NCBI RefSeq assembly: GCF_000721705.1
Contig: NZ_JOJL01000020.1
Location: 62,001-126,000, forward strand
Direction: 5' to 3'
Length of the DNA: 64,000 bases
From: Actinoplanes subtropicus
Lineage (GTDB): Bacteria > Actinomycetota > Actinomycetes > Mycobacteriales > Micromonosporaceae
Every line of letters begins with the position of its first letter. Within the stretch, counting starts at the first letter, position 1. This document shows positions 6,854-64,000 of the stretch, piece after piece. Made by a program: the position numbers and the translations under genes. The notes below the pieces were generated by a model. That model was not told the origin of the DNA, made no database searches, and saw only the letters and a list, made by a program, of their open reading frames with translations.

Positions 6854-7513
6854 GTGAACGCTCCCGTTTTGTCCGATTCCGTGGCGGTGATCCCGCCCTA
6901 CGCGACCATGCTCGGCTTCACTCGTTACGTGACCCGCACCGGCCCCGCGAAGGCCACGTTCGTCGGCGGTCTGCGGCGCGCCCGCGAGCGCCGCAGCGGT
7001 TTCAACCCGCACGGTCAGTTGGTGAAGGCGCTGAAGGCCGACATCGCGTTCCGCACCGGCGGCAGCTATCTGAACGGCGTGACCGATCTCGTGAAAGACC
7101 GGTGGAAGCCGCTGTATGAGGCGGTCAGCACCGGCGCGCTCGCCTACCTGGCGTCGCTGGGCGATCCGGCGGGGGTCAGCCTCGCGCAGACCCGGGACGC
7201 GCTCGCCTCGGTCGGGCCGCTCGCCGTCAAAATCAACCCCCACTTCGGATTGCGGTACGAGGACGGGCGGCGCGAAGCCGTGCGACTGCATTTCGACGAG
7301 GCGCCACCGACGGCCGAGGCGGTCACCGCGACGCTGCACCTGATGGCGGGGCATATGGACCAGATCCTGCCCAACGCGGAGCCGGTCCTGGTCGATCTGC
7401 GGCGCGGAATGACGCATCGCATTGACCCGGCCATGAAGCCGGCCGACATCGAGAGCTGGCTGACTGGGGAGGCGGCCGCGTTCACGGCCATGTGGTCCAC
7501 CTCGGTCGCCTGA
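6854..7513 (+). CDS. Conserved hypothetical protein
   Basis: 219 residues from GTG 6854, chosen because GAGGAG lies 6 nt upstream; an in-frame ATG at 6791 would overlap the hydrolase gene. A TAGAAT hexamer at 6807-6812 may be the -10 box. I do not recognise the family. The protein is mixed alpha/beta, has no signal peptide or membrane segment, and has a central PLAVKINPHFGLRYEDGRREAVRLHF block (split here only for description) that looks like an extended beta sheet. A strong terminator hairpin follows, so it is probably the last gene of its unit. Confidence 0.6.
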   Translation: MNAPVLSDSVAVIPPYATMLGFTRYVTRTGPAKATFVGGLRRARERRSGFNPHGQLVKALKADIAFRTGGSYLNGVTDLVKDRWKPLYEAVSTGALAYLASLGDPAGVSLAQTRDALASVGPLAVKINPHFGLRYEDGRREAVRLHFDEAPPTAEAVTATLHLMAGHMDQILPNAEPVLVDLRRGMTHRIDPAMKPADIESWLTGEAAAFTAMWSTSVA

Positions 7514-7528
7514 GGTTCGCTCCGAGCT

Positions 7529-7563
7529 CCGCGGCCGCCCCAACCACCCCGGGGCGGCCGCGG
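7529..7563 (+). terminator. Intrinsic terminator-like hairpin
   Basis: A perfect 13-bp G+C inverted repeat (7529-7541 with 7551-7563, loop of 9 nt) starts 15 bp after the stop of the preceding gene. There is no U tract, as is common in actinobacteria. Confidence 0.6.
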
Positions 7564-7602
7564 CAATCCGAGCGGCTCCCGTTATCGCGCCGGCCGTTTG
7601 CA

Positions 7603-7738
7603 TCTCGGGGTCGCCCGCGTCTCGGGGTCGCCCGCGTCTCGGGGTCGCCCGCGTCTCGGGGTCGCCCGCGTCTCGGGGTCGCCCGCATCTCAGCGGCGCC
7701 CGCATCTCAGCGGCGCCCGCATCTCAGCGGCGCCCGCA
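7603..7738. repeat. 17-bp tandem repeat, 8 units of two types
   Basis: Five units of TCTCGGGGTCGCCCGCG (the fifth ends in A) are followed by three units of TCTCAGCGGCGCCCGCA. The second unit type recurs in the array at 22205-22289. The period is not a multiple of three and the array is intergenic. Confidence 0.95.
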
Positions 7739-10575: not shown

Positions 10576-12124
10576 GTGGGTCGCCTACGTCACGGGAAGA
10601 CTCGGCCGCTGGGCCTGCCGTCCTGGAGTGACAAGCTCGTCGGCGAGGTGATGCGCCTGCTGCTGGAGGCGTACTACGAACCGACGTTCTCCGAACGCTC
10701 TCACGGGTTCCGGCCCGGGAGGGGCTGCCATACCGCGTTGCGGGAGGTGGCCCAGACCTGGTCCGGACGGCCGGGTTCGTCGAGGGCGACATCTCCGACT
10801 GTTTCGGGTGGTTCGACCACGAGGTCATGGTCACGATCCTGGCGGAGAAGATCCACGACAACCGGTTCCTGCGGCTGGTGCGCAACATGCTCAATGCCGG
10901 GTACCTGGAGGACTGGACGTGGCACGCCACGCTGAGCGGGGTTCCGCAAGGCGGGGTGGCCTCACCAGTACTTTCCAACATATATCTACACAAACTGGAT
11001 GTCTTTGTCGAGAAGACCCTCCTGCCGGAGTACACCCGAGGCCGCACCAGGGCCCGCAACCCGCACTACAAGAAGGTGGAAGCGGCAATCGAGAAAGCCC
11101 GCCGGGTCAGGGACCGCGCGCAGACGCGTGCCCTGCGACGGCGGCTGCATAGCCTGCCCAGCGGGGATCCGGACGATCCCGGATACCGCAGGTTGCGCTA
11201 CTGCCGTTACGCCGATGACACCTTGTTAGGGTTCGCCGGCCCGAAGGCCGAAGCCGAACAGATCAAGCACCGCCTGGCCGGGTTCCTGCGTGACGAACTC
11301 AAACTGGAACTCTCGCCCGGCAAAACCTGATCACCCACGCCCGCAGCCAGCGGGCGCGGTTCCTCGGCTACGAGATCTCCGTGGCCAGCACCGACCGCCC
11401 GACGATGCGCCACACCCCGGGCAAGCGGCGGATCCGCCGTCGCACGCTCAACGGCGTCATCGCCTTGCACGTGCCCGCCACCGTGGTCAAAGCCAAGAGC
11501 GCCCCGTACTTGTCACGCGGCAAACCCGCATGCCGCAACCCGTTGATCAAGGAAAGCGATCACACCATCGTCAACCGATTCGGGACCGAGTACCGGGGCA
11601 TCGTCCAGTACTACCTGCTCGCTCATGACGTCCACCGGCTGCACCGTCTGCGGTGGGTCATGGAAACCTCGATGCTCAAGACCCTGGCCTGCAAGCACCG
11701 CTCGTCGGTGACGAGGATGGCGGCCCGTTTCAAGGCCAAGACCTCGACACCACACGGCCTGCGGACCTGCTTCGAGGCCCGGGTCGAGAGGAAGAACAGG
11801 AATCCGCTGGTCGCGCGGTTCGGAGGTATTCCACTCAAACGGCACAAGAGCGCGGTCCTGACCGACCGTGCTTCTCCCCGCCCGCTCTATCCGGAGAAAG
11901 AGCTGGTCAAAAGGCTCCGGGCGGGCCGGTGCGAATGGTGCCAGCAACCGGACACGGACCCGCAAGTCCACCACGTCCGGCAACTGGCCGACCTCGACCG
12001 GCACGGAGAGCCGTGGCCCGCATGGGCAAAGATCATGAAGGACAAGCGCCGCAAAGCCCTGGTGGTCTGCGGAACCTGCCACGACCTGATCCACGGCCGA
12101 GCTGCCGTGACACTCACGTCATAG
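10576..12124 (+). pseudogene. Group II intron reverse transcriptase/maturase with HNH domain (broken)
   Basis: Three overlapping pieces in different frames make one decayed protein. Piece 1 (from 10576): [19 protein letters not shown] and [16 protein letters not shown]. Piece 2 (about 10772-11330): [14 protein letters not shown] (motif A Asp), SGVPQGGVASPVLSNIYL, and CRYADDTLLGF (YADD active site). Piece 3 (about 11329-12124): maturase X domain and an HNH-type end with CEWC, HH and CGTC. A one-base shift lies near 10770 and a one-base loss near 11328 (stop after ELSPGKT). The usual N-terminal 70-80 residues are absent. Confidence 0.85.
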
Positions 12125-12132
12125 TCACCGGA

Positions 12133-12167
12133 GAGCCGGATGCCTGGAAAGCGGGCATGTCCGGTTC
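12133..12167 (+). ncRNA. Group II intron domain V
   Basis: A 35-nt hairpin beginning GAGCCGGATGCC and ending GGCATGTCCGGTTC pairs along both stem parts, carries a GAAA-containing loop and the AGC triad at 12134-12136. This is the catalytic domain of group II introns and the best-conserved part of this one. Confidence 0.85.
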
Positions 12168-12232
12168 GGAGGGAGGCCACACGGAAAAGGACCAGCCAAC
12201 CGGCTGACACCTCGCCGTGTGGTCGACCCTAC

Positions 12233-22204: not shown

Positions 22205-22289
22205 CCTCAGCGGCGCACGCATCTCAGCGGCGCACGCATCTCAGCGGCGCACGCATCTCAGCGGCGCCCGCATCTCAGCGGCGCCCGCA
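22205..22289. repeat. 17-bp tandem repeat, 5 units
   Basis: Units CTCAGCGGCGCACGCA/CCCGCA preceded by T or C, 5 copies; the last two are identical to the second unit type of the array at 7603-7738. The array runs directly into the dispersed palindromic element that starts at 22290. Confidence 0.95.
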
Positions 22290-22640
22290 TCTCGGGGTGA
22301 AGACCGTGGGGGCGCTGCCCCCACACCCCCGGCCGAGCGCTCGGAGATGGGGGCTGGCGTATTGGTTGCGCTGGGGCGTTGGTGGGTGATCTCCTCGCGA
22401 CGACTGCCGTAGGGAATCTCGGGGTGGGCGGGAGCGCAACCACACCCCGGTTGCGCTCCCGCCCACCCCGAGATGGCGCTTGGCTGCCGTCGCGAGGAGA
22501 TCACCCACCAACTGGTTACCGTTTTGGGGCGGCTTCGCCGCATTTGTGTGCCTTGGCTAGTGGGTGGTTCGCGGGAAGTCGCCAAGATCAGGGCTCGGGT
22601 CGCGACCTTGGTGGGTTTGTGCTTTGTGCGAGTGCTTCGG
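22290..22640. repeat. Dispersed palindromic element, copy 1 (complete)
   Basis: About 350 bp with a series of hairpins. First, an 8-bp stem GTGGGGGC-GCT-GCCCCCAC. Second, a CCGAGCGCTCGG palindrome. Third, outer arms of 25 bp (22378-22402 with 22488-22512). Inside these, a perfect 26-bp inverted repeat (22416-22441 with 22449-22474) has a 7-nt loop ACACCCC. A GCGGC-TTC-GCCGC hairpin follows. It shares order and sequence with the copies at 53192-53468 (inverted) and 63766-64000. It lies 3' of the DUF4188 gene. Frames within it on either strand are artefacts of palindrome composition. Confidence 0.9.
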
Positions 22641-53191: not shown

Positions 53192-53468
53192 CGAACACAG
53201 AACACAAACACAACAGCCTCACGCGTCAGGCCCCGGATCTTGACGACTTCCTGCGAGACAACCGCTCCCCAAATGCGGCAAAGCCGCCCAAAGCCCACCC
53301 CCGGTTGGTGGGTGATCTCCTCGCGACGGCAGCCAAAGCGCCATCTCGGCAGTCGTCGCGAGGAGATCACCCACCAAACAGCCAGCGCAACCGCCACGGG
53401 ATGCATCCCCGAGCGCTCGGCCGGGGGTGTGGGGGGCAGCGCCCCCACGGTCTTAACCCCCCAACGCC
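53192..53468. repeat. Dispersed palindromic element, copy 2 (inverted, inner hairpin deleted)
   Basis: On the minus strand it repeats copy 1 in order: GTGGGGGC hairpin, CCGAGCGCTCGG, the 25-bp outer arms around 53315-53375, the GGCGGC-TTT-GCCGC hairpin and the GGAAGTCG-CAAGATC tail. The 26-bp inner hairpin of copy 1 is missing, leaving only AGATGGCGC. The element supplies the TAA stop of the neighbouring hydrolase gene and also lies 3' of the GNAT relic. No other gene lies in this interval. Confidence 0.9.
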
Positions 53469-63765: not shown

Positions 63766-64000
63766 GTGTTCGGGGGGTAGACCCTGGGGCGCTGCCCCAG
63801 ACCCCGGCCATCGCTGCGAAGATCAGGGGCTTGGCGTGTTGGTTGCGGTGGGGCGGTGGGTGATCTCCTTGCACGACAACCGTAGGGGATCTGCTGGTGG
63901 GAGGCGGCGCAAGCAAACCCCGCTTGCGCCGCCTCCCACCAGCAGATGGCGTTCGGCTGCCGTCGCAAGGAGATCACCCACCTATAGGTCGGGGTGTGCG
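63766..64000. repeat. Dispersed palindromic element, copy 3 (runs off the window)
   Basis: Same order as copy 1: CTGGGGC-GCT-GCCCCAG hairpin, outer arms (left near 63856-63880, right 63961-63982, one imperfect spot), and a perfect 26-bp inner inverted repeat (63889-63914 with 63922-63947) with loop AAACCCC. Seven inner stem pairs differ from copy 1 and all are compensated. It lies 3' of the LLM gene. The remaining 3' part is beyond the window. Bases 63700-63765 hold nothing recognisable. Confidence 0.9.

Follow-up and report, generated by a model that had tools for sequence, protein, structure and literature searches.

A dispersed, covarying hairpin element of Actinoplanes subtropicus as a candidate chromosomal relative of plasmid sso modules

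A 64,000-nt stretch of the Actinoplanes subtropicus genome (contig NZ_JOJL01000020.1, positions 62,001 to 126,000, forward strand; hereafter the window) holds three copies of a strongly folded intergenic repeat. What is this repeat, what keeps its arms matched while their sequence changes, and how did it come to be scattered over the chromosome? The reading that we favor, and hold to be probable though far from secure, is that we see here solitary copies, dispersed over chromosomes, of a relative of the single-strand origin (sso; called sti in pIJ101) that actinobacterial rolling-circle and integrative plasmids carry. This link to plasmids is not foreseen in the original prediction, which was made from the letters of the window.

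Layout of the element in the window

Read on the strand in which P1 comes first (P1-first), the element begins with the small P1 hairpin (starting AGACC) and continues through a spacer, in which the P2 word GGAGAT(C) lies, to P3. In P3 an outer stem of about 22 to 24 bp leads through an asymmetric internal loop to an inner stem of 26 bp, closed by a loop of 7 nt. The whole element measures about 205 bp. Two covariance models were used for searching, R1 (built from 25 elements, Actinoplanes only) and R2 (built from 28 chromosomal elements). The features of the window are as follows.

22301..22511, + strand: copy 1, whole element (P1, P2, P3) in P1-first orientation (R1 covariance-model match, 181 bits)
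22301..22330, + strand: copy 1, P1, small hairpin with arms GTGGGGG and CCCCCAC (sequence, fold)
22343..22348, + strand: copy 1, P2 word GGAGAT, the family-wide covariation partner of the outer arms (sequence, word search, covariation test)
22379..22402, + strand: copy 1, P3 outer 5' arm (sequence, fold)
22416..22441, + strand: copy 1, inner stem 5' arm, 26 nt (sequence, fold)
22442..22448, + strand: copy 1, terminal loop ACACCCC (sequence)
22449..22474, + strand: copy 1, inner stem 3' arm, 26 nt, perfect complement (sequence, fold)
22488..22511, + strand: copy 1, P3 outer 3' arm (sequence, fold)
22512..22640, + strand: copy 1, 3' tail, a looser repeat common to other copies of this genome, outside the family-wide element
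53305..53453, - strand: copy 2, retaining P1, P2, and the outer stem, with the inner stem lost (R1 match, 85.5 bits; sequence)
63779..63984, + strand: copy 3, whole element (R1 match, 212.8 bits)
63889..63914, + strand: copy 3, inner stem 5' arm, 26 nt (sequence, fold)
63915..63921, + strand: copy 3, terminal loop AAACCCC (sequence)
63922..63947, + strand: copy 3, inner stem 3' arm, 26 nt (sequence, fold)

The original prediction had described copies of up to 350 bp with one hairpin order. The element of about 205 bp stands, and the 3' remainder turned out to be the looser repeat of this genome's copies; the common order holds for P1, P2, and the outer stem and fails for the inner stem, which copy 2 lacks. 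The inner stems of copies 1 and 3 are as described, 26 bp and perfect, with seven differences per arm that are all matched in the opposite arm (counted by eye), and the two loops can be read in the sequence as reported. All three copies fold beyond dinucleotide shuffles (z = -11.3, -4.0, and -9.2 for copies 1, 2, and 3, respectively). Rfam gave no match to the element at gathering score at the window copies and, at six related elements, miRNA-type matches only, all below gathering, in keeping with the earlier statement that no named family has this layout.

A short tandem repeat (CAGCGGCGCACGCATCT-like, by eye) immediately precedes copy 1 (window ~22211 to 22290). A second repeat of about 200 bp, with a GGCGGCTGCGCCGCC-like hairpin, follows P3 in copies of this genome such as L002, L006, L010, and L013. 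The window also holds a degenerate group II intron (10594 to 12232) with broken RVT_1 pieces and maturase and HNH domains, within which Rfam matches Intron_gpII at 12131 to 12232.

Distribution and genomic surroundings

The predicted dispersed, structured family with many intergenic copies was found, as were the further copies proposed for this genome and for other Micromonosporaceae. Besides the three copies in the window, this genome brings the count to 13 aligned copies (BLAST and R1) and two fragments (BLAST). Counting R1 matches at E values of 0.001 or better, the element occurs in 17 of 67 Actinoplanes genomes and in 112 of 354 genomes of Micromonosporaceae (11 of 44 genera). A class-level sample gave matches in 14 of 394 genomes, two of which are members of the family; nine of the matches have the layout by eye, three of these only partly, and two others (L219 and L220) look like chance and were set aside. 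In a phylum-level sample, R2 matched 3 of 296 genomes, this one among them. A search for the exact hairpin pattern returned 50 stretches in named genomes, of which 33 are from Actinoplanes or Paractinoplanes and one is from a Micromonosporaceae MAG; the 16 outside Micromonosporaceae had no covariance-model match. P1 and the outer arms are recognizable across genera, and inner stems and tips are very divergent. In one genome (G034, L164/L166), foreign sequence, perhaps an insertion sequence, seems to split the outer 5' arm of one element at a contig break (by eye).

All window copies had been placed 3' of genes, and this was borne out: copies 1 and 2 lie between convergent genes, and copy 3 follows a plus-strand gene, its other neighbor being beyond the window. 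Flank orientations were assigned with a home-made gene caller, which left 44 of 74 elements in the genus unclassifiable; the 30 with both flanks called were 19 convergent, 9 tandem, and 2 divergent, and the convergent share (19/30) exceeds that of control gaps, some of which carry elements themselves (22/168; p 2e-8). The family set has no 3' bias (5' flank, 14 plus and 14 minus; 3' flank, 7 minus and 5 plus).

At one filled site (G002), compared with 11 element-free relatives, the element runs from the stop codon of the left gene and stops short of a terminator-like hairpin, and no target duplication was seen by eye at this site. That single comparison raised the idea of insertion beside intrinsic terminators, which was rejected as not general, since an A-rich foot with a hairpin was counted at 1 of 72 right flanks versus 2 of 266 controls.

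Paired change, strand, and the P2 word

For the covariation test, 67 full-length Actinoplanes elements (seven short or cut ones of the 74 distinct elements were dropped) were aligned with MAFFT, blind to structure. Column pairs were scored by a G-test with APC against a null of 60 alignments in which the parsimony changes on each branch were dealt to random columns. Statistically significant covariation, as anticipated, was present: 17 of 19,306 column pairs reached an E value of at most 0.05. Every one of these 17 is a nested pair of P3, the long stem, and none of the P1 pairs was significant in this phylogeny-aware test of 67 elements. RNAalifold (25 sequences) showed both-sided changes at 29 of 52 pairs.

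The kind of change is informative. Pair switches of transition and transversion type numbered 57:57 in the inner stem and 30:45 in the outer stem, against 367:419 for changes outside the stem. Transversion-type switches are as frequent in the stem as among changes elsewhere, so the covariation taken alone is no argument for selection on an RNA fold, and because the arm switches have no transition excess, the arms look copied from each other and not mended via G-U. The compensated change noted earlier is real as covariation; of the three causes proposed for it (selection on an RNA fold, selection on a cruciform, and copying within the palindrome), the last fits best. Truncated or hairpin-deleted copies are common, and in two Micromonospora-type genomes the inner hairpin is flipped relative to the remaining element (L184 and L196); these inversions and the frequent hairpin deletions point to a hairpin that acts as DNA.

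P1-first is the strand on which the original prediction read the element, but the opposite strand folds better. With DNA parameters, and without shuffle control, the reverse complement is favored in 53 of 70 genus elements, 44 of 50 family elements, and 9 of 9 hairpins from plasmids (described below). Mismatches in the stem are also uneven between strands. On the P1-first strand, A.C outnumbers G.U 31 to 3 in the inner stem (68 elements) and is about even with it in the outer stem of Actinoplanes (46:40); in the family and class set the ratios are 12:0 (inner) and 32:6 (outer). Single changes in the inner stem give A.C on this strand, so that G.U would form on the opposite one. Counted as events on the tree, A.C to G.U was 22:5 (inner), 36:18 (outer), and 58:23 (together). 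Outside the P3 pairs, however, G->A exceeds C->T 1.55-fold (p 0.002), and against this background the strand asymmetry of the stem is borderline (p 0.03 inner, 0.41 outer, 0.053 all), so it was dropped as proof of an RNA.

The P2 word behaves as a third partner of the outer stem. Its sequence is like that of the outer 3' arm and can pair with the outer 5' arm, and this 7-base word, which precedes the stem, covaries with each of the two. In register, 94% of cells pair, versus 60% or less at 12 other registers. At columns 43 and 78 the combinations are TA (45), GC (11), CG (4), and other (7), with a single-pair p of 5.5e-5, and both columns change on five branches (TA->CG three times, TA->GC once, and AT->GC once). 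By word search, P2 and both arms share 6 or more bases in 50 of 82 elements, the inner stem having been mistaken for an arm in some of the remainder. Other lineages carry GGAGGTG or CGGGGAA at both places, and L180 and L203 have GGGACCC and GGGGATC as their words (by eye). Genome G056 has GGAGATC and GGAGAGC types side by side, which speaks against a simple protein site. Exceptions to the match of P2 and arm are L140, L154, and this genome's copies with GAAGATC, and the 5' arm is mismatched in many Micromonospora copies.

Relatives on plasmids and competing explanations

The tip of a Micromonospora hairpin matches two 9.9-kb plasmids of Streptomyces longwoodensis, at 36 of 38 bases (E 6e-7), and on the plasmid that was read, the matching stretch is a full P3-like hairpin. 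The same plasmid has a Rep_1 match under the curated cut-off, an annotated SpdB, and a weakly FtsK-like protein. Searches with this stretch matched 21 plasmid records, and those with two other plasmid stretches matched 20 and 32. Among these are 7-kb plasmids, of which one carries an annotated rep, and the Micromonospora rosaria plasmid pMR2, which has a replication initiator and an integrase. R1 matched among nine plasmid loci (69 kb) at E values of 6e-6, 1e-5, and 2e-5 (twice), with a large bias correction and with P1 aligned in two records. With R2, run on 10 plasmid and 17 control loci, the top five were plasmid loci (E 1e-4 to 0.056; best control, 0.24); two of these (L351 and L347) span the long hairpin, and three cover P1-P2 only. 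No match was found by BLAST of one Actinoplanes element against plasmids and phages, by a phage search with two elements, or by a plasmid search with L211 and L088.

Beside the plasmid hairpin lies a small open reading frame. In all five plasmids tested (of 13 fetched), it is a homologue of pIJ101 SpdA2 (located in pIJ101 through its SRDE motif), with E values of 2.8e-5 to 2.7e-40, and in a sixth, pSGL1, the neighboring frame resembles the pIJ101 frame after spdA2 (by eye). Relative to the SpdA2-like frame, the end of the hairpin falls anywhere from 4 nt inside to 113 nt away. The stretch before P1 in Micromonospora copies also matches pIJ101 at 7285 to 7330 (93.6% over 47 bp, E 9e-13; best control, 1.5e-6), inside a region with no listed gene (7209 to 7673), one small frame from spdA2. 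R1 itself had no convincing match on pIJ101, whose sso is the type case (best, 15.6 bits over a 33-base piece). In every rolling-circle plasmid spdA is situated between rep and sso, and pIJ702, which has no functional sso, accumulates single strands (PMC4170104). By its position beside spdA, the plasmid hairpin is a putative sso. An spdA gene is also present on pSG2, a probable theta plasmid (PMC4170104), so this position is not proof. Similar hairpins occur as well on plasmids of 30 kb to more than 1 Mb, some of them linear, that are not known to use rolling-circle replication. Two linear Streptomyces plasmids (L358 and L359) have a related hairpin at about 1.3 and 2.8 kb, respectively, from one end.

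On this evidence the chromosomal copies would share their origin with plasmid sso modules and would have passed through a single-stranded stage. Like an sso or sti of the pIJ101 type, the element is non-coding and strongly folded, with one strand folding better, and its P1 and P3 layout recurs on plasmids adjoining spdA; unlike one, the Actinoplanes chromosomal copies are solitary and many, without rep, spdA, or tra. A displaced strand usually has the sense of rep, and rep runs opposite to P1-first in all four records with rep in the stretch read (called from one weak Rep_1 match and otherwise from annotation), so the exposed strand would be the better-folding one. On plasmids, rolling-circle replication would displace a strand and expose the element as single-stranded DNA; the reverse complement of P1-first would then form P3, flanked by P1, and this fold would be where host enzymes begin second-strand synthesis. 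During such a stage one arm could template the other, giving paired changes of any type, and deamination of cytosines on the exposed strand would leave the G->A excess on the P1-first strand. Weighing against this origin are the absence of plasmid genes next to any of 84 Actinoplanes loci, the lack of BLAST similarity between the Actinoplanes element tried and plasmids, the similar hairpins on large or linear plasmids, and, in Actinoplanes, both the rarity of a pMR2-type rep in element-bearing genomes and the regions around such reps, which have no recognizable element; the pMR2-type integrase or rep near some family loci (below) counts in its favor. Most chromosomal copies are probably passive now. 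In Actinoplanes, either the module spreads alone or plasmid parts have been lost. An sso on a chromosome is reported for Bacillus ICEBs1, where it lies inside an integrative element (PMC4595007) and belongs to an intact element, unlike the Actinoplanes module, which stands alone. No paper on chromosomal sso-like repeats turned up in searches of the open-access literature.

If this origin is correct, a replication-origin module regarded as a plasmid part exists as a family scattered over the chromosomes of Micromonosporaceae and of some other actinobacteria, its mutations carry a trace of single-stranded DNA life, and it offers many natural variants for testing what the poorly known actinobacterial sso needs. 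It would also caution that strong covariation can arise without selection on an RNA fold. The resemblance also hints at overlooked traffic between plasmids and chromosomes.

Alternatively, the copies may be derelict footprints, that is, immobile and functionless remnants of integrated rolling-circle plasmids, kept paired by passive correction of the palindrome. The many truncated and hairpin-deleted copies and the two inverted inner hairpins would suit this, as would the pMR2-type integrase or rep genes that 8 of 53 family loci have no more than about 1.2 kb away (in three of the eight only 25 to 35% identical). Yet single genomes hold up to 13 copies with genome-specific outer arms, two places in G056 carry the same element sequence (L130 and L131, perhaps an assembly repeat), and none of 84 Actinoplanes loci has a plasmid gene beside it. 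Together, the copy numbers, the identical pair, and the lack of adjacent plasmid genes suggest spread of the module alone, and we regard mere footprints as unlikely, if still a serious contender.

We rate a little lower, as unlikely, a transcribed RNA, by which a mobile, MITE-like intergenic repeat would yield from its reverse strand a long hairpin of RNase III type at the 3' ends of genes, and P2 would be an alternative partner of one arm. The convergent 3' location in the genus favors such an RNA, as do the covariation of P3 and of P2 with the arms and the better folding of the reverse strand with RNA parameters too (53 of 70 and 32 of 50). Against it stand the lack of excess transition-type switches, the plasmids with the same layout beside spdA, and the family set without 3' bias. 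MITE-like intergenic repeats such as ERIC, RU, and bcr1 are likewise dispersed, imperfect palindromes of 100 to 350 bp that are intergenic and have no open reading frame; the present element differs in having P1 and P2 outside the inverted repeat formed by the P3 arms, an inner stem that is hypervariable yet paired, and plasmid relatives beside spdA.

The name sti stands for strong incompatibility, and the chromosomal sso-like copies might conceivably serve as immunity or decoys against rolling-circle and integrative plasmids, with the P2 word switching arms to set the state of the origin, an idea we consider doubtful. Exclusion of rolling-circle replicons is proposed because a pMR2-type rep is rarer in element-bearing Actinoplanes genomes than in the others (2 of 17 versus 22 of 50; p 0.02, phylogeny ignored). 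The regions around these Actinoplanes reps hold no recognizable element.

Two candidate mobilizers fare worse. It is very improbable that the element is of reverse-transcriptase type, retron-like or mobilized by a group II intron: a retron-type reverse transcriptase is found in 14 of 17 element-bearing versus 13 of 50 other Actinoplanes genomes (p 9e-5, phylogeny ignored), but outside the genus the association disappears (13 of 95 versus 20 of 192, p 0.44), and the conserved stretch upstream of the enzyme is unlike the element (by eye). Slimmer still is the chance of a REP- or BIME-type element moved by a RAYT (Y1) transposase, since the suggested check for a TnpA-REP gene found none in this genome, where zero matches to PF01797 beside 13 copies exclude RAYT as a needed partner, and Y1 is also absent from G056 with its 8 distinct aligned elements, although Y1 domains occur in 21 of 67 Actinoplanes genomes. 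REP and REPIN sequences share with the element their extragenic, many-copy palindromes, and the element is much longer, in a genome without RAYT, with no constant GTAG tag at its left end.

The retron-type reverse transcriptase (about 460 aa; PADLOC RT_other, E 3e-170) is present in 27 of 67 Actinoplanes genomes (L262 to L280), and most of the aligned loci share a conserved stretch of about 110 bp upstream.
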